A stretch of DNA of 26,770 nt from a virus: the IMG/VR virus record IMGVR_UViG_3300005827_000112, positions 1 through 26,770 of that record; one strand, written 5' to 3'. Positions 3,342-26,770 of this stretch are shown piece after piece. The first letter of the stretch is position 1; the number at the start of each line of letters is the position of its first letter. The notes under the pieces were generated by a model, which saw only the letters and a program-made list of their open reading frames with translations, searched no databases and was not told the DNA's origin. The position numbers and the translations under genes are program-made.

Positions 3342-4319
3342 CTAACCTGCGTGGCCCTGCGCTGATGAGGCGGTCTGACGATTCCACGGCAATAACCGTT
3401 TTGCTTGCTCCCTGGCTGCTATATCCTCCTCCGTTAGGCTGGGAAGTGTTGGCGGAATGAAGCCGGGAATTGGGGTTAGTGCTGGGGCGGGGTTTGTCGT
3501 TGAGCATTGAGAGCGGTTGAATTCTATCCATAAATCATTTACTTGCACGTAGGCTTTCGTCCCTACTTCTGCAAAGTTAGCTTTTCTCAGTACGGCCTGT
3601 GCAATGCGCTCATGCTCATAGTGATTTCGCAGATAGTTTAACCATTTGACATCGCTTTGCAACTGCTTCCACGGGTGGGACGGAGAGCATAGAGCGTCGG
3701 ACGCTGAAACGGTGGGCGTAGATGCTTCTGTTGGCAGGACTGAGATTTCTTCCGTAAGCACAAGCTGAGTCACATCATTTTGTACGGATTCTAGATCGGC
3801 CAGTGGGGGGGTGGGGTCTTTATCCCCCCGTCTTAGATATTGATTCCGTTTTTTGATCGGAATAAGTCTTTTATATGGAGTGGGTTTTTCCACTTCCGGT
3901 TTTTCCACTTCCGGTTTTTCCACTTCCGGCTCTACCGTGAATGGATTTCCCACTTCTGGTGGAAACTGGGTCAATCCCTCATTCTCGCTTGCTTTTACCG
4001 TGAATGGATTTCCCACTTCTGGTAACTCTGCCACAACCCATTCATGTCCTGACCATTGTCCGTTTTCGCCTCTTACTTTTACCTGCCAAGCATATCCAGA
4101 GGCTTGCAGTTCTCGCATTCCGGCTTTTACTGAGTCCAGTCCGTCACGGTCTGAGTTGGCGGCAAGACTTTTTAAGCTGATTTTCGCTGTTGGTGGCAGT
4201 GACAGAATGTAATGGTGAATGCCCCTGGCCTTGAAACTTAGACCGCGATCGCGTACTGCCTTGTTATCGATGACAGTGAATCGCTCCTTGTGGCTGGATC
4301 TCCTGATGTATGTTTCCAT
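3342..4319 (-). CDS. HTH_36-type winged-helix protein, putative replication initiator
   Basis: The first 100 or so residues match the winged helix found at the N-terminus of many phage and plasmid replication proteins. Recognised parts are FTVIDNKAVRDRGLSFKARG, then HHYILSLPPTAKISLKSLAA, then GLDSVKAGMRELQASGYAW. A repetitive linker follows: two PEVGNPFTV units and three tandem EVEKP units. The C-terminal half holds a helical segment around KWLNYLRNHYEHERIAQAVLRKA. Length is 325 residues. A GCTTACGGAA site abuts its start codon and another lies inside the gene; the same 10-mer forms phased repeats at 6711-6819. I infer an origin-binding, self-regulating initiator. No Shine-Dalgarno is visible before ATG. 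Confidence 0.75.
   Translation of the reverse strand: METYIRRSSHKERFTVIDNKAVRDRGLSFKARGIHHYILSLPPTAKISLKSLAANSDRDGLDSVKAGMRELQASGYAWQVKVRGENGQWSGHEWVVAELPEVGNPFTVKASENEGLTQFPPEVGNPFTVEPEVEKPEVEKPEVEKPTPYKRLIPIKKRNQYLRRGDKDPTPPLADLESVQNDVTQLVLTEEISVLPTEASTPTVSASDALCSPSHPWKQLQSDVKWLNYLRNHYEHERIAQAVLRKANFAEVGTKAYVQVNDLWIEFNRSQCSTTNPAPALTPIPGFIPPTLPSLTEEDIAAREQAKRLLPWNRQTASSAQGHAG
3885..3929 (-). repeat. Three tandem 15-bp units encoding EVEKP
   Basis: TTTTTCCACTTCCGG (plus strand) occurs three times head to tail inside the HTH_36 gene and encodes the EVEKP linker repeats. A separate 27-bp direct repeat at about 3934-3960 and 3997-4023 encodes the two PEVGNPFTV units. Perfect identity implies recent slippage or expansion. 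Confidence 0.85.
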
Positions 4320-4329: not shown

Positions 4330-4441
4330 TGACGTAGGAAGGATGATCGCTACAACCCCCAATCTGTAAGAGGCTAATTGCGGTATACGCAAAAACGGCA
4401 TTTGCAGAGTGGGAGAAGTAGCGATCGCTGACTTAATTGGA

Positions 4442-5722: not shown

Positions 5723-6014
5723 CGATGCTAACTGTGCAGCGATCGCCGCGATCGCTGCTGAACTTGGCCTTAGCCAGACTAAGGCTCTCAATGTTTTGCT
5801 TTCGGATCTAGCTGGGGACTATTTGGATCACATTAGAAGCCGTCCCCGGCCTCGATTGGTTCCTAATGCGATCCAAACTGGATCCAAAGTGGATCCAACT
5901 AGGCTCTCGGTTGAGCCTACAACTGGATCCAATGTGGTTCCGATTCATGCCCATCCTGCGCCTGATCGTGATCCGTTATTGGATCGTCTTGGTTCTTTAT
6001 TGGAGCAATGGTGA
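5703..6014 (+). CDS. Hypothetical protein
   Basis: A 103-residue protein overlapping the upstream gene by 20 bases. The N-terminal half (about 1-45) is helical and includes GLSQTKALNVLLSDLAGDYL, which could be a small helical DNA-binding or dimerisation unit. The second half is Pro/Ser/Val-rich and disordered-looking. The DNA of that half holds the phased GATCCAA repeats, so part of the protein sequence may be a by-product of a DNA site. No family is recognised. Confidence 0.55.
   Translation: MTRLKIDDANCAAIAAIAAELGLSQTKALNVLLSDLAGDYLDHIRSRPRPRLVPNAIQTGSKVDPTRLSVEPTTGSNVVPIHAHPAPDRDPLLDRLGSLLEQW
5870..5932 (+). repeat. Helically phased GATCCAA repeats
   Basis: GATCCAA occurs at 5870, 5881 and 5892 (11-bp period) and again at 5926, 34 bases later. 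Because 11 is not a multiple of 3, the copies fall in different reading frames of the gene at 5703, which points to DNA-level rather than protein-level selection. One turn of B-DNA separates the sites. Confidence 0.7.
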
Positions 6015-6421: not shown

Positions 6422-7056
6422 ACTGCTCCCATTCCACGGCCTACCCTAGCCTCAACCATCGGACTGGCTCTTACTGTCCAGAATGCGATCGCGGCGTTTA
6501 TCCCTCCTCACGCCTGCCCGTGTTCCGGGCTGGTGATTTTGTCGCCGTTAGTGGGGATTCTCAGACATGGCGGGTTGTTGATGATTCGCATCCCGCTAAT
6601 TACGTTCTACAGTCTGGGTCTGATCCTGGCAAAACTCGGCGGTGCGCTGAGAAGTTTCTTATAGCCGCACAGATATTAGAATCCCAGCCTGAAACTGTTG
6701 ATATTCCGATGCTTACGGAAGATATTTACGCACTACTCCCCATGGAGGGGGATTCTTCGCTACTTTCTTCCGTAAGCACTCTAATATCTTCCGTAAACGC
6801 AGAGGAATCTTCCGTAAGCGCATTTGGGCATGACCTTAAAGTCATCCCTTCTCATGGCAAGCGATATTTTAGATATGTCGCCTGGGAGGGTCATAAGGTA
6901 GTGCGATCGCTCCATATCCCTGGCGGCAATACTCACAACGGGGTGGCGAGGGAGAGAGCCTATAGGGTCAGACAGGCCATACGCGCTGGGAAGGGTCTGC
7001 AAGAAATTGAGGCGATGATAGTTAGTTGGCGCACAAGTCGAGCCAAGAGGCGTTAG
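6412..7056 (+). CDS. Hypothetical zinc-ribbon protein containing phased DNA repeats
   Basis: A 214-residue protein. The N-terminus has CSH then, 16 residues later, CPEC: a probable zinc-binding pair. The middle carries three SSVS/SSVN units spaced exactly seven residues apart. The C-terminus (about 140-214) is basic, with VIPSHGKRYFRYVAWEGHKV and ending RTSRAKRR, which suggests nucleic-acid binding. The start overlaps the upstream gene by ten bases with GGAG eight bases before it. The SSVS units are encoded by the candidate iterons at 6768-6819, so the gene may double as an origin, as in several theta-replicating phages and plasmids (inference). Confidence 0.6.
   Translation: MGLDCSHSTAYPSLNHRTGSYCPECDRGVYPSSRLPVFRAGDFVAVSGDSQTWRVVDDSHPANYVLQSGSDPGKTRRCAEKFLIAAQILESQPETVDIPMLTEDIYALLPMEGDSSLLSSVSTLISSVNAEESSVSAFGHDLKVIPSHGKRYFRYVAWEGHKVVRSLHIPGGNTHNGVARERAYRVRQAIRAGKGLQEIEAMIVSWRTSRAKRR
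6711..6819. repeat. Candidate iteron cluster (TTCCGTAAGC)
   Basis: TTCCGTAARC occurs at 6768, 6789 and 6810, exactly 21 bp apart, with the inverted copy GCTTACGGAA at 6711-6720. The 12-bp core TCTTCCGTAARC is kept while the 9-bp spacers differ, the pattern of protein-binding iterons. Two helical turns per unit would place the bound proteins on one face of the DNA. Confidence 0.6.
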
Positions 7057-7057
7057 C

Positions 7058-7163
7058 TCTCCCTGGCTTAGGGCATACCCTATCGATGTGCCCCCACCCC
7101 CCCAAACCACACTACCAACCATCACTCTCAGCCCCTGCCAAATTCGGGCGGAATTAAAAGGGT
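7058..7163 (+). repeat. Intergenic promoter-like repeat, copy 2
   Basis: It begins TCTCCCT just after the stop of the gene at 6412 and has the GGGCATACCC, ATCGAT and C5-A-C7 core. CCACTATCAACC-like text and GGAATTAAAAGGG follow. The terminal TACTATTGAACTA and GTACAMAATCT sites of copies 3 and 4 are absent, and no plus-strand gene follows. It may therefore be an operon-end or decayed copy. Confidence 0.9.
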
Positions 7164-7364
7164 GTTGGGTTAGGCGTAGAACGTAGAGTTAATAAATCTC
7201 TCGGTTTGTAGTGGATGCTGCTGAACACGTTGAACGCAGTTCAACGGAAAAATTTTTTTGAAAAAATGACCCCTTGCACGGTTTCGTGTAAGGGGTTGGG
7301 GCGGGGCATAACTCCCGCTGGTGTGGTTATGTTTTTTACTTTATCCGGGGCGATCGCGTGCGGG
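7164..7364. other. Spacer between convergent operons
   Basis: The spacer after repeat copy 2 contains an inverted repeat at 7228-7246 (CGTTGAA, 5 bases, TTCAACG) followed by A5T7, possibly a weak plus-strand terminator or operator. It also contains the minus-strand terminator at 7260-7295. No gene is seen. Confidence 0.55.
7260..7295 (-). terminator. Rho-independent terminator of the 11035-7365 operon
   Basis: On the minus strand an 11-bp stem (CCCCTTACACG / CGTGCAAGGGG, one G-T pair) with a 4-base loop is followed by TCA and six T's. It lies 70 bases beyond the last gene of the minus-strand operon. Confidence 0.8.
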
Positions 7365-7946: not shown

Positions 7947-7998
7947 GGCTTCGTTCTGATATTAGAATCTTCAATCTATCACTGGGTTGGGTTTGTTT

Positions 7999-8502
7999 TC
8001 AATCCTTTCTCAGTGATTGATTAAAGATAGCGATCGCGGCCTGCATCACCAGATCATCAGGCCAAGCTGGGTGGGCTTCTTTTACCCGATGGATACAGAA
8101 TCCCAAAAACTCCACCGAGAACCCAACCCTTTGGTTTAACTTTTCTCTTGTTAGTGGCTCCGATTGGTGGTGATTCTGTACAGATTCTCGATAGGCTGGC
8201 TCGGCGTTCCCCGTGGGTGCGGTTCCCGCGCGTCCTTGCAGTTCCTTGATTAGTTCTCCTGGCTGTTGGGGCAGTAGTTTCCATTTGGTTTTTCCTGCTT
8301 TTGTTTGGGCTTCTAGGGCTACGGTATCCCCAGGTTGAAGGAAGGAGAACAATCCTGCTGCAAAATAAACTCTGCATTGCTCTTGATCGTCTACAAACTC
8401 CACGAGTAGGGAATGCTCTGGGGTGTAGCCGTTCGCGCTTTTTGGCTCTGTTGGGGCGTGTTTGCATACGGCCCAGTAAACTTGGGGGTTTGGTTGTGGC
8501 AT
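7999..8502 (-). CDS. Hypothetical protein
   Basis: From the ATG at 8502 this is 167 residues; the ORF is open back to a TTG at 8631, but that start would lie in the duplicated intercistronic element. The N-terminal 85 residues look beta-rich (VYWAVCKHAPTEPK, SLLVEFVDDQEQCRVYFAAG, FLQPGDTVALEAQ). A polar linker follows and then a helical C-terminus. The N-terminal part could be an OB-like or small beta-barrel domain, which would suit a single-strand-DNA-associated protein, but this is a guess. Confidence 0.5.
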   Translation of the reverse strand: MPQPNPQVYWAVCKHAPTEPKSANGYTPEHSLLVEFVDDQEQCRVYFAAGLFSFLQPGDTVALEAQTKAGKTKWKLLPQQPGELIKELQGRAGTAPTGNAEPAYRESVQNHHQSEPLTREKLNQRVGFSVEFLGFCIHRVKEAHPAWPDDLVMQAAIAIFNQSLRKD

Positions 8503-9738: not shown

Positions 9739-10647
9739 CTAGAGATAGCAGCCTACCAACTGGCGTTGGAATTTCTGCATTTGGTTTGCACGGTTGCCGG
9801 ATAGAATCGATCTGAATTGGTCGTTAACCGTTCCCCGCGCTGGCGCGTGCCAGTTGAAATACTCGGTTACTGAGTGAAGCAATCCGTAGGCTGTGTTATA
9901 GGCTGATTGCAACTCCGATCCTTTCGCTTGCCCGTTAAACAATTTCAGCGCAGTCTTGACAATCCGGGGTTGGCTTTCCACGGGTTCGCCGATCACACCA
10001 AAGGCCGCGATCAGTTGTAAGGTGGCCTCCATCGTGTCTACATTTATCGTAGTCAGCGCGGTGTCCTGCTCTTGCTGCTGGCTGAGCGTTTCCCGTGCCA
10101 GTTGTAGCAGTGTGGTGATCTTGGCTTCGTTGAATGATCCAACGTGGGCCATGGTTTTTGATCCCACCTTGATCCCTAGCTTCATTCCGTTCGTGCAGAT
10201 TAGCCGATTCGCATAGATGGAGACGCTTAGGCCGCGACCATTTACGTGCGAATCTTCTAGCAGTAGATAACCTTCCGTGAGATCTCCTATGCAGGTGGCT
10301 GGGGCTGTCATTTCTGGCAATTTGGCGGCGGCGTATAACTGACGGCCTCCGTCTAAGCTTCCCAGATGGGTCATTGGCAGATCGGCTTGGTCACAGAAAC
10401 GGTTAAAGGTTTCGACAATCTCCGAATTCTGCCAGGGCTGGCGATCGCGGTAGGTGTCCAAGAATGCCTTTGTGTCGCTCCGATAAGCTGCGAAGATGTC
10501 GGGCTGTTCGTGTGTAGTGCCTTCATCGTCCCGATATTTGATCGGGGCTAGGTACACCAACCAATCTAGACTTGCTGCTTTCAGTTGCTCGTCAACTGTC
10601 AAGCCTTCAACATTAACAGCGGTGCCACGGTGCCAAGATGTAGACAT
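9739..10647 (-). CDS. DUF932 (phage/plasmid-like protein)
   Basis: This 302-residue protein matches the DUF932 family of phage and plasmid proteins. Its N-terminus has a conserved HRGTAV start and the DWLVYLAPI segment. It continues with IFAAYRSDTKAFLDTYRDRQ, LGSLDGGRQLYAAAKLPE, the ICTNGMKLGIK block and a helical C-terminus ending RQLVGCYL. DUF932 proteins are widespread in phages and conjugative plasmids; their biochemistry is not settled, although roles in DNA maintenance have been proposed. The length is usual for the family. It is the second gene of the operon from the promoter at 11214-11242 and the largest. Confidence 0.85.
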   Translation of the reverse strand: MSTSWHRGTAVNVEGLTVDEQLKAASLDWLVYLAPIKYRDDEGTTHEQPDIFAAYRSDTKAFLDTYRDRQPWQNSEIVETFNRFCDQADLPMTHLGSLDGGRQLYAAAKLPEMTAPATCIGDLTEGYLLLEDSHVNGRGLSVSIYANRLICTNGMKLGIKVGSKTMAHVGSFNEAKITTLLQLARETLSQQQEQDTALTTINVDTMEATLQLIAAFGVIGEPVESQPRIVKTALKLFNGQAKGSELQSAYNTAYGLLHSVTEYFNWHAPARGTVNDQFRSILSGNRANQMQKFQRQLVGCYL

Positions 10648-10685
10648 TATTAGTAAATCCTTGTTGCTTGGAATAAAGAACGGTG

Positions 10686-10707
10686 GGGGCGTTTAATGAC
10701 TCGCCCC
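10686..10707 (-). other. Intercistronic hairpin between 10721 and 10647 genes
   Basis: GGGGCG, 10-base loop, CGCCCC. No T-run follows on the minus strand. With the hairpin at 9707 and the leader hairpin at 11068 it forms a series of GC-rich stems in this transcript. Confidence 0.5.
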
Positions 10708-10720
10708 AATGTCGGATAGC

Positions 10721-11035
10721 TTAGGCTGCCAACTGCTCCGCATCCATCGGCGTGTAAGCAACTGGGCATTTGCTTAGGCGATTGATGAACACTTCCCTAT
10801 TCATGCTTAAGTCCCGGTTGCCTGTTGCTACGTGATAAGCCATTTCTTCGATCAAATTCTCGATGCACAATCCAAGCCAGTGGTACAGGGCTGATTCAAT
10901 ATCAGCGGCCTTGTAGTGCATCCCAGCATCATGCTCGTAGTGGGCCTGGATCTCTAAAGCCACTTCCGCGATCTGATCGTGCTGTTCCTCTGAAAGGCTC
11001 ATATCTTTGTAGTGGGCGATGGTTGTTTGTGACAT
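10721..11035 (-). CDS. Hypothetical protein
   Basis: The first gene of the minus-strand operon: 104 residues, acidic and largely helical (SEEQHDQIAEVALEIQAHYE, then ADIESALYHWLGLCIENLIE). It lies about 170 bases downstream of a near-consensus promoter, so it should be strongly expressed early. No family is recognised. Early, highly expressed small acidic phage proteins are often host-takeover or anti-defence factors, but that is only a reason to test it. Confidence 0.6.
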   Translation of the reverse strand: MSQTTIAHYKDMSLSEEQHDQIAEVALEIQAHYEHDAGMHYKAADIESALYHWLGLCIENLIEEMAYHVATGNRDLSMNREVFINRLSKCPVAYTPMDAEQLAA

Positions 11036-11067
11036 AATTGATTACCTTGTTTAGTTGAATTGGTTGG

Positions 11068-11104
11068 GGGTGAGTGATGGCCGTCACTCACCCTAGTTTT
11101 TTTG
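11068..11104 (+). terminator. Strong hairpin with T-run (plus-strand terminator / minus-strand leader stem)
   Basis: A perfect 10-bp stem GGGTGAGTGA / TCACTCACCC with a 6-base loop is followed on the plus strand by TAG and eight T's. As a plus-strand terminator it would stop antisense transcription into the structured region. On the minus strand it lies in the 5' leader of the early operon. Confidence 0.6.
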
Positions 11105-11213
11105 CGCGTTTGGTGTGAGCCAACTTTGAGGGCTTCCCCCCTACTGCCGGGTTTCTAGGCTTGTGCCGTTGTCTGGGCCTCGCTCCGCGCTCTTTATCTA
11201 ACCTTCAATTCTA

Positions 11214-11242
11214 ATTATAGAGCAAAACTATCCTAAAATCAA
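11214..11242 (-). promoter_or_regulatory. Sigma-70-type promoter of the 11035-7365 operon
   Basis: On the minus strand TTGATT (plus 11237-11242) is separated by exactly 17 bp from TATAAT (plus 11214-11219). Transcription would start near 11207, giving a leader of about 170 bases before the ATG at 11035. Confidence 0.8.
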
Positions 11243-11287
11243 GCAAATATAGGGTTAATCTGCTCCTAATTTAGAACGATTTACCGC

Positions 11288-11303
11288 GATTTCGTACACA
11301 ATC
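11288..11303 (+). promoter_or_regulatory. Palindromic GTACACAATC site before the structured RNA region
   Basis: GATTTCGTACACAATC is a near-palindrome around GTAC. It matches 21583-21598 closely and 15029-15044 partly; in those places it lies just upstream of operon start codons. It is likely a promoter or operator that would put the RNA region in the same regulon as two late operons. Confidence 0.5.
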
Positions 11304-11940
11304 TCAATCCGGTGGTGGCGTAGCCGCCCCCATTCCCAGATTCTCAGCCCAACCGTGCCGCCGCCCACCGCCAAAGATGCACACAAAGCAGCGGGTCCCA
11401 TGTCAAGGGGTGGAGCAACGTTGGATAAATTGGCGTTTAGCTGTAAACCTCTCTGCGTTGCGGAATCCCCTTTACATGGGTGCTGTGTGCGAACCTATTC
11501 GGTAGGCGGTGCAACGGTTGGGCTGATGCGTAGCAACAACTCACCCCCTTGGGGGGCTGGGGGGACTGGGGGTTTGGGGGTTATCCCCCTTAGTGACCGG
11601 AAATAAAGACCGGATCAGGCTTTGCCTGCCCTTAATTCTTCTAGCCTCTGAAGCAAATGGGTAGCGATGGGAACCTCAAGGAAAACATGACCCCATGGCT
11701 GCCCATTTGCGACTAACCAACTACCTGCCTGTACTGCGTTAGGGATAGGAGTAAGCTGGCATACCGCTGGAACCTTAGCGATGCACGGCTTGTAAAAGCT
11801 CGATGGGCGGTGAGGGAGATTTTACAAGCCGATGCATCGCTTAGGTTGTGGCGGTATGACTGCTGCGGATAGCCCGACCCGCCCCAGAACGTGCCGATCG
11901 CCTGCCGCAATGACTGAGCGGGTAACGCCCAACTGAACGG
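11304..11940 (+). ncRNA. Putative large structured RNA (about 0.6 kb)
   Basis: This gene-free stretch contains nested complementary segments. Part one: 11345-11356 pairs with 11514-11525 (perfect 12 bp), ACCGCC 11367-11372 with GGCGGT 11505-11510, GCACACA 11379-11385 with 11484-11490, CCCATGT 11397-11403 with 11474-11480, AAGGGG 11405-11410 with 11467-11472, GCAACG 11415-11420 with 11456-11461, and GTTTA 11435-11439 with TAAAC 11444-11448. Part two: a hairpin at 11653-11710, a stem of 38 bp with few mismatches at 11760-11858, and a possible pseudoknot at 11864-11923. A G-quadruplex motif and small stem-loops lie between. Size and phage context recall ornate RNAs such as GOLLD and ROOL; no membership is claimed. 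The strand is inferred from the promoter-like site at 11288. A packaging or replication DNA site is the alternative. Confidence 0.6.
11551..11580 (+). other. G-quadruplex motif
   Basis: Four runs of 6, 6, 5 and 5 G's are separated by loops CT, ACT and TTT. A run of five C's directly upstream (CACCCCCTT) and another downstream (ATCCCCCTT) could pair with G-runs instead, so a switch between duplex and quadruplex is possible. Confidence 0.75.
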
Positions 11941-11941
11941 A

Positions 11942-11954
11942 TACTATTGAACTA
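11942..11954 (+). promoter_or_regulatory. Phage promoter motif before the small terminase
   Basis: TACTATTGAACTA followed by ATACCCT. The same motif with AATGCCCT precedes the coat gene (23214), and TACTATTGAACTA occurs before the gene at 15059 (15016). TACTAT is a plausible -10; there is no consensus -35, which suggests an activator or extended element. The start at 11975 is 21 bases downstream. Confidence 0.6.
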
Positions 11955-11974
11955 ATACCCTATAGAAAATGTAG

Positions 11975-12364
11975 ATGGCTGGCCGTAGTAAGAAAATCCC
12001 AATTACTCCTGAAGCTATCGGCATTATTGAAGGGATGGCTGGCCGTGGAGCAGTCCTAAATGATATTGCCAAGTACCTAAATATTGGGCCATCGACCCTA
12101 GATCGATGGCTGAAAGAACCTGAAGTTCGGCAGGCTTATGATCGTGGTCGCATCCATGCGATTGATGCTGTGGCAGAAGCTTTATATCAAAGTGCTTTGG
12201 CTGGGGATACTACTGCTCAAATCTTTTATCTGAAATCTCAAGCAAAATGGCGGGATTACTGGCCTGTCGATGATGCCAAAGAAGCTCCGGCTGTTGTTCA
12301 CTTCTACTTACCTGAACTGGAACCAGAACAGCCAGAATCACCTAGTCCTGAACATTCAGGTTAG
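11975..12364 (+). CDS. terS: Terminase small subunit (putative)
   Basis: A 129-residue protein. An N-terminal helix-turn-helix covers about residues 10-55 (ITPEAIGIIEGMAGRGAVLN, then IAKYLNIGPSTLDRWLKEPE). A helical dimerisation/oligomerisation region follows (AIDAVAEALYQSALAGDTTA, IFYLKSQAKWRDYW), typical of small terminases that bind the packaging site. The tail is acidic and Pro-rich (LPELEPEQPESPSPEHSG), the part that often contacts the large subunit. It lies upstream of the large terminase, as usual. The structured region immediately upstream could include its recognition site. Confidence 0.8.
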   Translation: MAGRSKKIPITPEAIGIIEGMAGRGAVLNDIAKYLNIGPSTLDRWLKEPEVRQAYDRGRIHAIDAVAEALYQSALAGDTTAQIFYLKSQAKWRDYWPVDDAKEAPAVVHFYLPELEPEQPESPSPEHSG

Positions 12365-12367
12365 TTG

Positions 12368-12709
12368 CTAACCAGGGGTTCGCCAACCAATTTGCCTTGG
12401 ATTATTTAGCCGATCTGCCAATGCTGCCGCCAACCCACCATCATCTAAATGCTTTCGCCCTGCCAATGGGTTTTGTTGAGTTAGATGCTGGGTGATCATA
12501 CTCTTCCTCTCGGCCTGTGCCTGATTCGGCTTTGTCGCTGCCTTCGTTCCTGTCCGTTTTGCCAACGCCCTTCCTAACTGCTTCTCTTTCTTTGGCTTCG
12601 GCTGTTTGGGAAAGGCACTCTCCCGCAAACTTCCACCCGTGCCGCCTGCCTGTGTTGCTTTGGGGGCTGCGGGTCGCGGACTCGGTTTTAGACTTGGCTT
12701 TACATTCAT
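12368..12709 (-). CDS. Hypothetical basic protein antisense between terminase genes
   Basis: A 113-residue, Lys/Ala/Pro-rich protein with a low-complexity N-terminal half and a more ordered C-terminus (MITQHLTQQNPLAGRKHLDD, then GGLAAALADRLNNPRQIGWR). It fills the 348-base gap between the terminase genes on the opposite strand. GAGGT lies six bases before its ATG, and that ATG is three bases from the start codon of the large terminase, so the two start sites are divergent and nearly touch. It could be a moron or a small DNA-binding accessory. The alternative is that the gap is noncoding; no family is recognised. Confidence 0.5.
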   Translation of the reverse strand: MNVKPSLKPSPRPAAPKATQAGGTGGSLRESAFPKQPKPKKEKQLGRALAKRTGTKAATKPNQAQAERKSMITQHLTQQNPLAGRKHLDDGGLAAALADRLNNPRQIGWRTPG

Positions 12710-12712
12710 ACC

Positions 12713-14092
12713 ATGACCTCGGTAACAACAACTCCCACTATCATAAGACCCCATGAAGGGGCGCAGACTGCCGCCCTCGCTTCCCGTGCCACGATTGTCC
12801 TGTTTGGCGGTGCTAAGGGTGGTGGTAAGAGTCATGCTATGCGATTGGTGCCTGTTCGTTACATCAATACTCCTGGTTACCGCGCTGCCATATTCCGGCG
12901 ATCGCTGCCCCAGATTGAAAACCCTGGTGGTCAGTGGGATAAATCCTATGAGATTTACAAACCGTTCGCTGGCAAAGCTCATAATGCTAAGTTCACTTGG
13001 CGGTTCCCCCCTGGCTCCAGTATTCGCTTTTGGCATTTGCAGAATGACGACGCTTGGCTGGATTGGCAAGGTACTGAGTGCGCTTACTTTGGATTTGATC
13101 AGCTTGAGGAATTTACCCAAACTCAATTCCTTAAGATGCTGACCTGCTTGAGAACCACTACCAAGGTTCCTACCAAGGTATTTGCAACCATGAACCCTGA
13201 TGCAGTGTCATGGGTGCGATTGCTGGTTGACCCATGGATTGCCAGTGATGGTTATGTTGATCCACTTCAGGATAGAAAAACTAAGTATTTCACCGTCATT
13301 GATGATGTGATTACGTGGGTTAGCCCTGATTACAGAGATTCTAATGGTCAGCCCCCGACAAGTTGCGTTTACATCTCCGCTGACGTTTGGGATAACCCAA
13401 CCTTGCTAGAGAACGACCCCAAGTATCTTTCCAACTTAATGAGCCAATGCAAAGTAGACCGCGACCGCTTCCTCGGTGTGCGTGGGCGCGGCGGCAATTG
13501 GAACGTTAAAGCTGAAGCAGGGAAAGTATTCAAATCTGACTGGTTCCGCATTATTGATCATGCCTATGCAGATCAGGTGGTGAAACGCTGCCGTTATTGG
13601 GACTTGGCCGCTTCCGAAGCAGAACATAAGGGCGATAACCCAGATTGGACGGTTGGGCTATTGATGGCACTGCTCCGCAATGGCTCTGTGGTAGTGGAAG
13701 ATTTGCAGCGCGATCGCTTGACTCCACCCGACGTAGATAAACTCATGCTTAGAACCGCTCAGGCTGACGGCTCCGCTGTGCTGCAACGCTGGGAACGTGC
13801 CCCTGGTGAGGCTGGTATTCGCTCAGATTTTGCATTTCGCAACCTACTGACTGGCTATAACTGTGCTGGCATTCTGCCTAGAATCAGCAAATTCGACCGC
13901 GCTAAGCCATTAAGCAGACTAGCTGAAGATGGCCGATTTTACCTGAAACAGGCTGACTGGAATAACACCTTGATTAACGAGTATGTGTCCTTTCCTGATG
14001 GGGATTTTGATGATCAGGTTGATGGTGGCTCCGGTGCTTATTCATGCCTAGTGAATAACTCATCTTCTGGTACTGGGCAGATGCAGATATAA
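12713..14092 (+). CDS. terL: Terminase large subunit
   Basis: A 459-residue packaging motor. Walker A is FGGAKGGGKS (about residues 31-40). A Walker B-like block YFGFDQLEEF follows at about 120-130, then TTKVFATMNPD (motif III region). The RNase H-like nuclease half contains YWDLAASE (an acidic metal ligand), NPDWTVGLLM and the C-terminal FPDGDFDDQVDG, with the acidic cluster expected of the nuclease. It cuts concatemeric DNA and pumps it into proheads through the portal at 19437. The length is normal. No Shine-Dalgarno is visible at the ATG; translation may depend on the leader. Confidence 0.95.
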   Translation: MTSVTTTPTIIRPHEGAQTAALASRATIVLFGGAKGGGKSHAMRLVPVRYINTPGYRAAIFRRSLPQIENPGGQWDKSYEIYKPFAGKAHNAKFTWRFPPGSSIRFWHLQNDDAWLDWQGTECAYFGFDQLEEFTQTQFLKMLTCLRTTTKVPTKVFATMNPDAVSWVRLLVDPWIASDGYVDPLQDRKTKYFTVIDDVITWVSPDYRDSNGQPPTSCVYISADVWDNPTLLENDPKYLSNLMSQCKVDRDRFLGVRGRGGNWNVKAEAGKVFKSDWFRIIDHAYADQVVKRCRYWDLAASEAEHKGDNPDWTVGLLMALLRNGSVVVEDLQRDRLTPPDVDKLMLRTAQADGSAVLQRWERAPGEAGIRSDFAFRNLLTGYNCAGILPRISKFDRAKPLSRLAEDGRFYLKQADWNNTLINEYVSFPDGDFDDQVDGGSGAYSCLVNNSSSGTGQMQI

Positions 14093-14901: not shown

Positions 14902-14910
14902 ATGGGCATA

Positions 14911-15058
14911 TCTCCCTCGCTTAGGGCATACCCTATCGATGTGCCCCACCCCCCCAAACTACACCACTAACCACCACTCTCAACCCCTCCCAAATTGGTG
15001 CTGATTAAAAAGGGGTACTATTGAACTAGAAACCGTACAAAATCTGAACAGGCTTCCC
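14911..15058 (+). repeat. Intergenic promoter repeat, copy 3 (full length)
   Basis: The complete element: TCTCCCT, CGCTTAGGGCATACCC, ATCGAT, C4-A-C7, ACTCTCAACCCCTCCCAAATT, GATTAAAAAGGGG. It then carries TACTATTGAACTA (15016-15028) and GTACAAAATCTGA (inside 15029-15044), and ends with AGGCTTCCC just before the ATG at 15059. The last 45 bases parallel copy 4 up to its start codon. Confidence 0.9.
15016..15044 (+). promoter_or_regulatory. Double promoter/operator of the 15059-17672 operon
   Basis: TACTATTGAACTA is followed immediately by the GTAC-centred near-palindrome GAAACCGTACAAAATC. Both motifs recur at other plus-strand transcription units (11942, 23214; 11288, 21583). The gene start is 15 bases downstream. 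Confidence 0.55.
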
Positions 15059-17825: not shown

Positions 17826-18326
17826 CTAGAACAAAGGCAACTGAGCCGCCACTGGCCCAGGGAACAGCCACCACCCACGACCCAACGACACGAACCCCCA
17901 CCCACCGGGAACCCCAAACGGGGCAAACACCAGAGAGGGCACCCCAAGGAACACAGCCAGAGCCAACGAAGCCCACGACCCAGACCCCGCCCCACGGAAC
18001 GGAGAGCCAGAGGGAACCACACCCACTGGACAGGGAGCCGAGGGGAACGACACCCAAGCACCACCCGCCGCCGCCACAGCCCGAACACAGGCCGCTGACC
18101 GAACCGCAAACGCCCCACGACCGGAAAAACCAACTGACGCAACCGAGAACACCCGCACCGAACCCGACCAACCCGAACGAACAAACCCGTCAACACCCCC
18201 CGCACAACCCACGAACACACAGGCCGAAGGAGCAACCCGCCCCAACGCCAACTGAACCGCCGCAGCCGGAACAACCGACCGAGAGCCAGAGAAACCGACA
18301 ACCGAGAAAGAGGAAAGACGAAACAT
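17826..18326 (-). CDS. SLOG/Rossmann-like protein encoded by an adenine-depleted strand
   Basis: From ATG 18326 this is 166 residues (open to a GTG at 18392). Motifs run in Rossmann/SLOG order: GFSGSR at 11-16 (nucleotide-binding loop), VGCAGGVD at 39-46, FAVRSAACVRAV at 73-84, FPSAPCP at 94-100 and the Gly-rich GSGSWASLALAV at 114-125, ending WGFVSLGRGWW and AQLPLF. This recalls accessory SLOG-type proteins of cyanobacteria and phages related to DprA, YpsA or DUF2493; the ligand is unknown. The coding strand has almost no A, so every frame on both strands is open and ORF length alone is no evidence. The motifs and the adjacent terminator choose this frame. It lies opposite to the late genes, a moron-like insertion. 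Confidence 0.65.
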   Translation of the reverse strand: MFRLSSFSVVGFSGSRSVVPAAAVQLALGRVAPSACVFVGCAGGVDGFVRSGWSGSVRVFSVASVGFSGRGAFAVRSAACVRAVAAAGGAWVSFPSAPCPVGVVPSGSPFRGAGSGSWASLALAVFLGVPSLVFAPFGVPGGWGFVSLGRGWWLFPGPVAAQLPLF

Positions 18327-18668
18327 GACCGAACGCCCAAAACGCGCAACAACCCGCAAAGCACAACCCGGAAGGCTGGCCTGCCGCCTCACCGATAACC
18401 GTTGTAGCGGAACGAGGCGTGTTGGACGCTGAACGTGTGTTAAGCCTCTGTGGTGAGTGGAGCTTGGATCACTGGTGAAGGCAGGGCAGACTGGAGGGGG
18501 GTATACTAGAAAAGCCTGCGCGTGGCATTAATAAAATTCTGTAGACGGCTTTGATCATGCACAATGCACTGTTTTATCCTGGCCTTCCTCTCACTGTTTT
18601 AGAGTGGTTTGGGATGGTCTTTTGCTGCCTTTTTTTGTATGTGACCTATAGCGATTGGATTGATTGAA
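18327..18668. other. Upstream spacer of the SLOG-like gene
   Basis: The adenine-poor bias ends near 18400. The rest holds short stems (GAGGC near 18413 with GCCTC near 18443), a plus-strand -10-like TATACT at 18502-18507 without a clear -35, and T-runs near 18630. No gene is seen; promoters for both directions are expected here. Confidence 0.4.
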
Positions 18669-18963: not shown

Positions 18964-19028
18964 TACAATTGTATTCAAATCTACGTGTGGTTTTAACGCT
19001 TCCGAGGGCAATTCGGAGGCGTTTTTTA
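18964..19028 (+). terminator. -10-like site followed by terminator
   Basis: TACAAT (18964-18969) just past the stop of the preceding gene is followed by ACGCTTCCGA, 7-base loop, TCGGAGGCGT and six T's (18996-19027). This has the same promoter-then-terminator order as 17720-17782. Confidence 0.8.
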
Positions 19029-19034
19029 TTGGAG

Positions 19035-19437: not shown

Positions 19438-21083
19438 TGGAAGAACAGAAATTTAGACCAGATAAACAGTGTGTCGCATACAAGCGTAACGCCCCTCGCT
19501 GGCAACGATTAGCCGATTTATTTATGGGGCCATCGGCATGGCTGGACTATAAAGCAAATGGCACTATTGGGCTGACTTCCAAGACTTCTAGCTACTTGCC
19601 CAAGGAACCCGCTGAAACTGATGTGGACTATCTCAATCGGGTGGTTCGCTCTCCATTCCATGACCGCTTCGCATTGTCTGTCAGAAAGTTCGTTAATCTC
19701 ATCTTTGCCAATGGGATTGATAGCTCCAAGGTTAATCCGCAGCTTGCTCTTCACTTGGAAAACTTGGATTATGAGGGCGGAACTTTTCAGCAATTCTTAA
19801 ATGAACACGCTGTGAAGGTTATGACTTTTGGGCACAGCTTTTTGTATGTCGATGCCCCTGCTACTGACATCATCCCCCAGAACCTTGCGGAATATCGGCA
19901 ATCAGGGCTGCGCCCCTATTGGGCGCAGTATTCACCGTTGCAAGTTCCATGGTTTAAGCCTGCGTTGGTGGGTGGTAGACGGGTTTTGGTTGAGGTCGCT
20001 TTGAAGGAAGTCGAGTTAATTGATACTCCCAAAGGGGAAGTTGAAGTTGAACAATGGCGATGGTTGCGCCCTGGTAGTTATGAAGTCTGGCAACGGTTAC
20101 CACAGGAACTAAGGCAAGATTCCAATGTTCCTGAGTTCCGCATGGTTTCCAGTGGGCAGACTTCGCTGGGATTTATCCCGCTGGTTCCTACTTACGCTGA
20201 CCTAAGAGAGGGCTGGTTTTTCAGTCGTCCTCCGCTGGGGGCAATGTCTGACCTTAATCTCACCCACTATCAAGTTTTTTCGGATCATCTCCGTAAGCTG
20301 CATTTGTGCTGTATGCCTGTCCCGGTACTGCGCGATAGTCAGCTTGATCCTGATAAGTCGTTGGTGATTGGCCCTAATTCCTTTTTGCATATCCGTGATC
20401 CCGGTGGGATGTTTACTTGGGCTGAGCCGCTTGCAACCTCCATCGAGCAATCGCGGCGTGAAGTTCAGGATTTAGAAAGCAGGATGGACATTCTTTCTGC
20501 TGCATACTTAGCAACTCCCGCCGATCGCCAAGCTGCTAAAACAACCGAGGTTCAGGTAGTTGAGCTTGAGTCAACTTTGGAAGGGTTTTGCTCCAGCTTT
20601 GGCGATGGCGTGAATGATGCGCTTAGGGTGCATGGCGCGTATCTGGGCATTACCGATCCTGGCACAGTTAGCCTGTCTGGGGACATTTTGAAGGAAGATC
20701 CAAGGGATTTCCAACTGCTCGATACCCTTGGCAAGTTGGACTACCAGAACCAATTGAGCCGTGAAACCTTCCTGACGTTGCTCAAAAATGCTGGATTCCT
20801 GCCTGAAGACTTTGATTTGAGCAGTGAACTAGCTCGACCTGCTGAGATGTCGCCTGATTTGGTTGATTCTTTAGTTAAGCTTGTGCAATGGGATCTCTTG
20901 GGCAAGCGTCGTATTTATGCGATTCTCCAGCGTTTGGGCTATATCCCGAATGAATGGTCTATTGATGATTTAATCAGCGAAACGGGGGAAACCTTACGTG
21001 TTGAATCAGTCTTTGGTGCCGCCCAACCTGCGCTCGACGATGCGCCAACCGCCAACCCGAACGTATTGGCTGCAACGGTTTGA
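19437..21083 (+). CDS. Portal protein (DUF4055-type)
   Basis: A 548-residue protein matching the DUF4055 phage portal family. Recognised parts are YLPKEPAETDVDYLNRVVRS near residues 53-72, then FANGIDSSKVNPQLALHLEN, RPYWAQYSPLQVPWF, the WRWLRPGSYEVWQRL strand, LGFIPLVPTYADL, DLNLTHYQVFSDHLRKLHLC and IGPNSFLHI. A long stem helix region follows (LESRMDILSAAYLATPADRQ). Portals form the dodecameric DNA channel at one capsid vertex and dock the terminase. The ATG overlaps the preceding stop as TAATG, so it is coupled. Its last 44 bases overlap an HNH gene. Confidence 0.9.
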   Translation: MEEQKFRPDKQCVAYKRNAPRWQRLADLFMGPSAWLDYKANGTIGLTSKTSSYLPKEPAETDVDYLNRVVRSPFHDRFALSVRKFVNLIFANGIDSSKVNPQLALHLENLDYEGGTFQQFLNEHAVKVMTFGHSFLYVDAPATDIIPQNLAEYRQSGLRPYWAQYSPLQVPWFKPALVGGRRVLVEVALKEVELIDTPKGEVEVEQWRWLRPGSYEVWQRLPQELRQDSNVPEFRMVSSGQTSLGFIPLVPTYADLREGWFFSRPPLGAMSDLNLTHYQVFSDHLRKLHLCCMPVPVLRDSQLDPDKSLVIGPNSFLHIRDPGGMFTWAEPLATSIEQSRREVQDLESRMDILSAAYLATPADRQAAKTTEVQVVELESTLEGFCSSFGDGVNDALRVHGAYLGITDPGTVSLSGDILKEDPRDFQLLDTLGKLDYQNQLSRETFLTLLKNAGFLPEDFDLSSELARPAEMSPDLVDSLVKLVQWDLLGKRRIYAILQRLGYIPNEWSIDDLISETGETLRVESVFGAAQPALDDAPTANPNVLAATV

Positions 21084-21426
21084 TTTTTTTCACGGGCAAT
21101 ATCCCGCCTGCTGGAAGAAAGGTCATGTTCAGAAGGTTTTGCTTGATTGGGCTAACCATCGCTGTGAGGTGTGCGATCGCGGACTAGATCAGGTATCTCT
21201 TCATGTCCACCACCTGACTTGGGCGGATAAACATGATTGCCGTTGGATCAATTTACTCGTTTGCTGCCGTGCGTGTCACGTCCAATTGCATAATCGGCGT
21301 TGGCAACCGGGGCAAAAGTGGGAGAGCCGCTGGGGAGAAGTGCCAGAGTGGGCGATCGCTAGGGGACTATTAGATAATGCTGGCAACCCAGTTTCCTCTA
21401 TAGATGTAGCTGCGATCGCTACTTAA
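21040..21426 (+). CDS. HNH endonuclease
   Basis: A 128-residue HNH protein from ATG 21040; an in-frame GTG at 20998 is less likely. The zinc pair CEVC (about 44-47), the LHVHHLTWADKHDCRWINLL block with the HH pair and catalytic His, and CRACHVQLHNRRW complete the HNH module. HNH nucleases beside terminase/portal genes can assist genome cleavage in packaging; a free-standing mobile nuclease is the alternative. It overlaps the portal gene and is followed by repeat copy 4. It is not closely similar to the HNH protein at 1881. Confidence 0.85.
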   Translation: MRQPPTRTYWLQRFDFFHGQYPACWKKGHVQKVLLDWANHRCEVCDRGLDQVSLHVHHLTWADKHDCRWINLLVCCRACHVQLHNRRWQPGQKWESRWGEVPEWAIARGLLDNAGNPVSSIDVAAIAT

Positions 21427-21470
21427 TTAAATCCAGTGGCAACCCAGTACAATCTAACTAATGGGTGTGT

Positions 21471-21611
21471 TTCCCACTCTTAGGCTCTGCCCTATCGATG
21501 TGCCCCCACCCCCCCCAAACCACACTACCAACCATCACTCTCAGCCCCTACCAAATTGCTGTTGATTTAAAAGGGGTACTGCGATTTTGTACACAATCTG
21601 AGTAGGCTGCT
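21471..21611 (+). repeat. Intergenic promoter repeat, copy 4 (full length, diverged left end)
   Basis: The left end reads CTTAGGCTCTGCCC instead of CTTAGGGCATACCC; the rest matches (ATCGAT, C5-A-C8, ACTCTCAGCCCCTACCAAATT, GATTTAAAAGGGGTACT). It then has GATTTTGTACACAATC and ends AGTAGGCTGCT before the ATG at 21612. TACTATTGAACTA of copy 3 is replaced by TACTGCGATT. Confidence 0.9.
21583..21598 (+). promoter_or_regulatory. GTAC-centred near-palindrome before the 21612 operon
   Basis: GATTTTGTACACAATC differs from a perfect palindrome at one symmetric pair. A near-identical copy lies at 11288-11303. Position and conservation suggest a promoter element or operator of the late genes. Confidence 0.55.
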
Positions 21612-23209: not shown

Positions 23210-23213
23210 GCCA

Positions 23214-23226
23214 TATTATTGAACTA
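23214..23226 (+). promoter_or_regulatory. Phage promoter motif before the coat gene
   Basis: TATTATTGAACTA followed by ATGCCCT, nearly identical to 11942-11961. Being placed right after a terminator, it should give the coat gene its own transcript, with a leader of about 80 bases. Confidence 0.6.
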
Positions 23227-23304
23227 ATGCCCTGGCCGTGGCATGATGCTGGCCTAGCGTGATGTGAGCGGGCGCGTTACTCGTATCTCGTTATTGGGGG
23301 CTGT

Positions 23305-26289: not shown

Positions 26290-26727
26290 ATGACGATCGC
26301 TGTGATTGACCAAAACGGAAACTATATCCAATCCTTTGAGGACGGCTATTCTGTGCAACTTCAAGCAGGCCAGAAGGTTATCAATCATGCGCCTTATGAC
26401 GCGCGGCAAAAATGGTTGGGAGATCGCTGGTCAGATGCTCCAGCTTCTCCTAATTGGGTAGCGTTTCGGCGGACGTTGATGGGGTCTGATGCCTACAACT
26501 CACTCAAAAAACTCAATTTCAGTCCAGAAAAGTACGATTTGATTGTCAACTTGAGCGTGTCGCTCATCGTTACTCCGCCAAACGTTGAACTTATTGCGTC
26601 GCTGTGGAACCAGCTAGACAGGGCAACTCTTAACCCGCAAAGGATTCAGAGCTTAAGGGATGCGATCGCGGCTAATAATATTCCCCTGTCAATTGATAAT
26701 CAGGGGACTATAACTGTAGTAGGTTAG
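26290..26727 (+). CDS. Hypothetical protein after the fibre (tail-fibre assembly-like)
   Basis: A 145-residue protein from ATG 26290, two bases after the fibre stop; the ORF limit at 26254 would overlap the fibre. The N-terminus is beta-rich (IAVIDQNGNYIQSFEDGYSV). Then comes GDRWSDAPASPNWVAFRRTL and a helical half (SLKKLNFSPEKYDLIVNL, then RIQSLRDAIAANNI). Small proteins right after a fibre often attach to or help fold it, so a fibre accessory is likely. No specific family is recognised. Repeat copy 5 follows. Confidence 0.55.
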   Translation: MTIAVIDQNGNYIQSFEDGYSVQLQAGQKVINHAPYDARQKWLGDRWSDAPASPNWVAFRRTLMGSDAYNSLKKLNFSPEKYDLIVNLSVSLIVTPPNVELIASLWNQLDRATLNPQRIQSLRDAIAANNIPLSIDNQGTITVVG

Positions 26728-26728
26728 T

Positions 26729-26770
26729 TCTCCCCTGCTTAGGGCATACCCTATCGATGTGCCCCCACCC
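26729..26770 (+). repeat. Intergenic promoter-like repeat, copy 5 (truncated at window edge)
   Basis: TCTCCCCTGCTTAGGG and the shared core up to C5-A-C3, where the window stops. Bases 26742-26770 equal bases 1-29. Joining the ends over this overlap would restore one intact element. Confidence 0.9.

Follow-up and report, generated by a model that had tools for sequence, protein, structure and literature searches.

GOLLD and ROOL are structured noncoding RNAs of 600-800 nt that occur in phages and prophages and have no known function; ROOL forms a homo-octameric RNA nanocage (PMC12286853). The put RNA of HK022 is a structured RNA with which transcription of a phage operon begins and which acts in cis on RNA polymerase (PMC9378689). 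In mycobacteriophages, RNA-based prophage origins of the non-RepA type have been described (PMC7157519). Here, a noncoding block of about 640 bases directly upstream of the terminase genes of a cyanophage is characterized and compared with these systems.

The window analyzed was the whole 26,770-base virus record. The HIP1 octamer GCGATCGC is present in 48 copies in the record versus 0.4 expected, which points to a cyanobacterial host; in this whole-record count, the octamer was absent from positions 10441-12898. The block lies between a leftward and a rightward gene cluster. The nearest leftward gene (10721-11035) begins at 11035, and just upstream of it a strong terminator-like hairpin is located on the + strand (11067-11094). 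The rightward cluster has the order terS, terL, exonuclease, portal, scaffold, and capsid, and no tRNA genes were found in the record. Several operon borders share an intergenic C-rich repeat, CTTAGGGCATACCCTATCGATGTGCCCCCACCCCCCC... (1-96, 7052-7167, 14905-15019, 21464-21580, and 26723-26770). The 29-base end repeat of the record is part of it; therefore, the apparent circularity of the record may reflect an assembly break at a repeat. The features discussed below are listed in Table 1.

Table 1. Coordinates of the structured block, its elements, the framing motifs, and the terminase genes in the window.
Feature	Position	Strand	Remarks
Structured noncoding block	11304-11940	+	fold z -10.25; without coding match
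P1, shared palindromic motif GATTTCGTACACAATCT	11288-11304	+	promoter-like (putative), 5' edge of block; twin at 21583-21599
Rod A	11344-11526	+	62 pairs, 13-bp perfect closing stem
G-quadruplex motif GGGGGGCTGGGGGGACTGGGGGTTTGGGGG	11551-11580	+	five-tetrad capable; four runs of at least 5 G, loops 2-3
Hairpin B	11653-11710	+	~22 pairs
Rod C	11754-11864	+	111 nt, ~44 pairs
P2, second shared motif ATACTATTGAACTAATACCCT	11941-11961	+	between block and terS; twin at 23213-23233
terS, terminase small subunit gene	11975-12364	+	phrog_309
terL, terminase large subunit gene	12713-14092	+	phrog_979

No other stretch of the 26.8-kb cyanophage record is as strongly structured as the block. The + strand of the 690 bases from 11281 to 11970 folds at -306 kcal/mol versus -248 kcal/mol (sd 5.7) in dinucleotide shuffles, which corresponds to a z-score of -10.25, and the - strand of the same region reached -7.7. 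In the ranking of 132 windows of 400 nt by energy excess, the + strand windows over the block took the first two places, and the mean pair probabilities within it were 0.92-0.97. In a scan with 120-base windows, lone hairpins elsewhere in the record attained similar z-scores; the block stands out by the packing of several hairpins rather than by any one of them. The open reading frames inside it yielded no convincing Pfam or PHROG match, none being above chance, and none matched the compared loci. Rod A corresponds to a self-complementary block of 65 bits and rod C to one of 82 bits. Other terminase loci, 2.2 Mb in total, contain about 11 independent blocks of at least 65 bits, so the probability of finding two within 640 nt by chance is ~5e-6. 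Other long imperfect self-complementary stretches of the record, weaker than rods A and C, are located at 4345-4426, 5804-5896, 6700-6788, and 7967-8028; some of these stretches fall inside genes.

All hairpins named in a preliminary description of this DNA do exist, and its view of the region as gene-free and as a large structured noncoding element is supported. Some details required correction. Rod A, described as a branched domain of 180 bases with a 12-bp closing stem, measures 183 nt and is unbranched in the MFE structure, with internal loops; its closing stem (TCAGCCCAACCGT / ACGGTTGGGCTGA, 11344-11356 with 11514-11526) is indeed perfect and is one pair longer than stated. The 58-base hairpin, now B, was recovered as described, whereas the "99-base hairpin of about 34 pairs" proved to be the larger rod C. 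As expected of any inverted repeat, both strands are foldable. Hairpin B is more stable on the + strand (-34.3 versus -28.0 kcal/mol on the - strand), as is rod C (-67.9 versus -59.2 kcal/mol), and the paired arms of the three elements contain 9 G.U versus 5 A.C. The stability of B and C and the G.U excess lean weakly to the + strand.

Inverted repeats of this kind could also be functionless and of recent origin, left by a mobile element or by replication slippage. The absence of the block from all relatives (see below) and the long imperfect repeats elsewhere in the record, including those within genes, are compatible with such an origin. However, the three rods and the quadruplex motif lie closely packed within the bounds set by two shared motifs, 11000-12000 yielded no direct-repeat family, and the arms are 81-94% complementary in their ungapped cores. 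We assign little probability to a block without function.

The G-rich sequence between rod A and hairpin B, which was missing from the preliminary description, is the window's only quadruplex motif built on runs of at least four G, and G5 quadruplex motifs are otherwise absent from the window and from 2.4 Mb of further loci. The MFE of 11304-11940 was -314.4 when the quadruplex was allowed versus -301.2 when it was not. In the syntenic relative L274, a motif of four G4 runs is found at 8073, ~1.9 kb before terS. The heptamer CACCCCC directly precedes the quadruplex motif in both L274 and the window, a likeness that need not reflect homology.

A G-run within a structured transcript suggests by analogy an RNA-primed origin, in which the G-run of the RNA would form a lasting R-loop, or a quadruplex, at the C-rich template strand, and DNA synthesis would be primed from there. 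ColE1 RNA II, which carries a G-run, and the G-rich CSB II of mitochondrial DNA are the models for such an origin. The four G5 runs that the + strand carries midway along the block, its transcript-like size and structure, its position between the two divergent clusters, and the existence of RNA-based origins in mycobacteriophage prophages would all agree with this explanation. The record nevertheless contains a replication initiator-like gene of its own (3342-4319, phrog_4707) with internal 15-nt repeats, which lowers the standing of the origin hypothesis; in addition, no clear turn of the GC skew was seen at the block, and Rfam RNAI gave no match. An origin of this type appears improbable. 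The repeats within the initiator-like gene are tandem (15-nt units at 3883-3942 and 28-nt units at 3933-4023) and could be either origin iterons or merely the trace of a repeated VEKPE peptide.

At either edge of the block lies a + strand motif that is found again ahead of further late operons and is, by position, putatively promoter-like. P1 (GATTTYGTACACAATCT) differs from its twin by one C/T substitution; the sharing of this upstream palindrome with another operon was thus confirmed. With up to three mismatches, P1 has 4 matches versus 0.08 expected, and its shorter core GTACN0-2AATCT has 5 matches, all on the + strand, versus 0.29 expected. P2 (ATWYTATTGAACTAATNCCCT), which had been overlooked earlier, matches twice versus 0.00 expected; its twin precedes the capsid gene, and a partial copy lies at 15015.

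We tentatively favor, at somewhat below an even chance, the interpretation of the block as a structured RNA that leads the late (terminase) transcript, is probably cut by RNase III, and acts in cis. Several observations argue for it: the + strand folds 10 sd better than its shuffles, and more so than the - strand; P1 stands at the start of the block and P2 at its end; terS begins 35 nt past the block end in the same direction; and no terminator-like site was found between the block and terS. Transcription would start near P1 and give an RNA of ~640 nt that opens the late operon and carries the three long rods together with the quadruplex. Since the rods hold helices long enough for RNase III, the leader would probably be cut from the terminase mRNA by this enzyme. 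Its most likely task in cis would be to set up RNA polymerase or to shield the transcript, allowing the long late operon to be transcribed to its end; HK022 put and other processive antitermination leaders could serve as a model. A terminator-like sequence is located at ~18995-19030, inside the late region, and read-through could therefore matter. On the other hand, no homologue that could furnish covariation was found in any collection; the syntenic relatives manage without the block, so its function is not essential to the phage group; P2 may be the promoter of terS itself, which would make a leader unnecessary; and folding of both strands is a property of inverted repeats in general.

The search for relatives covered RNA families, nucleotide collections, and syntenic loci. 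Against Rfam, with the GOLLD, ROOL, and pRNA models included, nothing was found at gathering scores, and only chance-level matches appeared at E<=10. The match to mir-9449 (E 0.0026) was discarded as a generic hairpin, its score being 28.6 versus a gathering score of 100. Blastn of the block against phages and plasmids returned no match, and comparison of its DNA with two cyanobacterial genome samples returned short weak matches only; one of these was inspected and lies in an apparent protein-coding gene. Besides chance-level matches, CMs of rods A and C run over the relatives, and the CM of rod A run over 42 genomes, recovered the window alone; these are single-sequence models of limited reach. 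Among viral contigs, no close relative was found by TerL, capsid, or repeat patterns. A 20-mer of rod C matched one contig that was otherwise dissimilar, a 20-mer of rod A matched none, and the P1 motif was found in five contigs, also otherwise dissimilar.

Through its terL relatives, the window could be linked to syntenic prophages of cyanobacteria. The loci L272, L273, L274, L276, and L095 have terL, the exonuclease, p19054, and mostly the portal in common with the window, and no block of comparable structure or sequence was found in these five. In L272, L273, and L274, the gene upstream of terS encodes a protein of 91-108 aa. The block is thus an orphan among the cyanobacterial genomes, phages, plasmids, and viral contigs searched, a set from which records very near the window may have been excluded. 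An HNH endonuclease gene follows the portal in the window (20998-21423), and an HNH gene 54% identical to it lies between terS and terL in L273 (12109-12432), which fits the mobility of HNH genes. A leftward open frame amid the rightward genes of the window (17826-18392, - strand) has a translation that resembles L272 13704-14252 by eye and may be a real, unnamed gene.

The pac and cos sites of several phages sit directly upstream of terS, and the block occupies the same position. The inverted repeats might accordingly be read as DNA by the terminase, as a packaging signal. However, the block is far larger than known sites, is not conserved in relatives whose TerS is 45-50% identical, and lacks direct repeats that could serve as iterated binding sites; we consider a packaging site improbable.

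Large hairpins upstream of terS were also found in some unrelated phages (L016/L017, L242, L191, and L060). The position-wise excess of structure upstream of terS was small, and a structured-gap test gave 2/20 versus 1/66, too few cases for us to propose structured gaps before terS as a widespread feature. In the unrelated virus contig L016 (2148-2702, the same in L017), a strongly folded gap of 555 nt directly precedes terS and holds a 167-nt rod and several hairpins without an Rfam match; the two contigs are identical across the gap and hence give no covariation signal. L242 (2651-2920) and L191 (4140-4285) have near-perfect long hairpins of MITE-like shape just before terminase genes.

In genomes as dense as those of phages, 640 strongly folding noncoding bases at the head of a packaging operon come at a cost and probably serve some purpose. 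The block is real, statistically strong, unusual, and in no Rfam family; if transcribed, it would count among the ornate phage RNAs without falling into any of these families. It is possible, though we consider it rather doubtful, that it represents a previously undescribed class of large phage RNAs without a relative in known families, in which three long rods and a five-tetrad RNA quadruplex would control the late operon of a cyanophage or prime replication by an R-loop. A single orphan copy is a lead and not a discovery; the quadruplex offers a sharp, testable handle on it.

Comparison with the described systems does not support a kinship of the block with GOLLD and ROOL, to which it had been likened initially. 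It is similar to them only in size and phage setting; unlike them, it has long unbranched rods, a G-quadruplex motif, and a single known copy. The conserved 3' domain of the GOLLD model was not matched, nor was the ROOL model, even at the permissive threshold, and the tRNA genes often found near GOLLD are missing. An independent trans-acting ornate RNA that works in a GOLLD/ROOL-like manner, yet belongs to a separate class, could be made from P1 and accumulate alone. Its size, phage setting, and strong fold would suit such a role, as would the presence of P2 as a separate motif for terS. It appears unlikely, since the block has rods instead of multi-branched folds and shows no Rfam match, nearby tRNA, 3' terminator, or homologues. 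With the pRNA of phi29 the block shares a positional link to packaging genes; no match to the Rfam pRNA model was obtained, and TerS and TerL of the window are of the ordinary large-terminase kind, unlike the phi29 setting. The group I and group II intron models of Rfam gave no match either. With ColE1 RNA II and the non-RepA mycobacteriophage origins the block has in common a noncoding transcript of several hundred nucleotides, putative in the present case, whereas the cyanophage differs in having an initiator-like gene. No RNA I/RNA II pair was found; the antisense strand of the block folds as well, and no promoter evidence was obtained for it. HK022 put serves early genes and is far shorter (PMC9378689), and no sequence resemblance is claimed. 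The likeness lies in cis action at an operon start, which for the block is only proposed, and of the known systems put comes closest in function to the leader that we favor.
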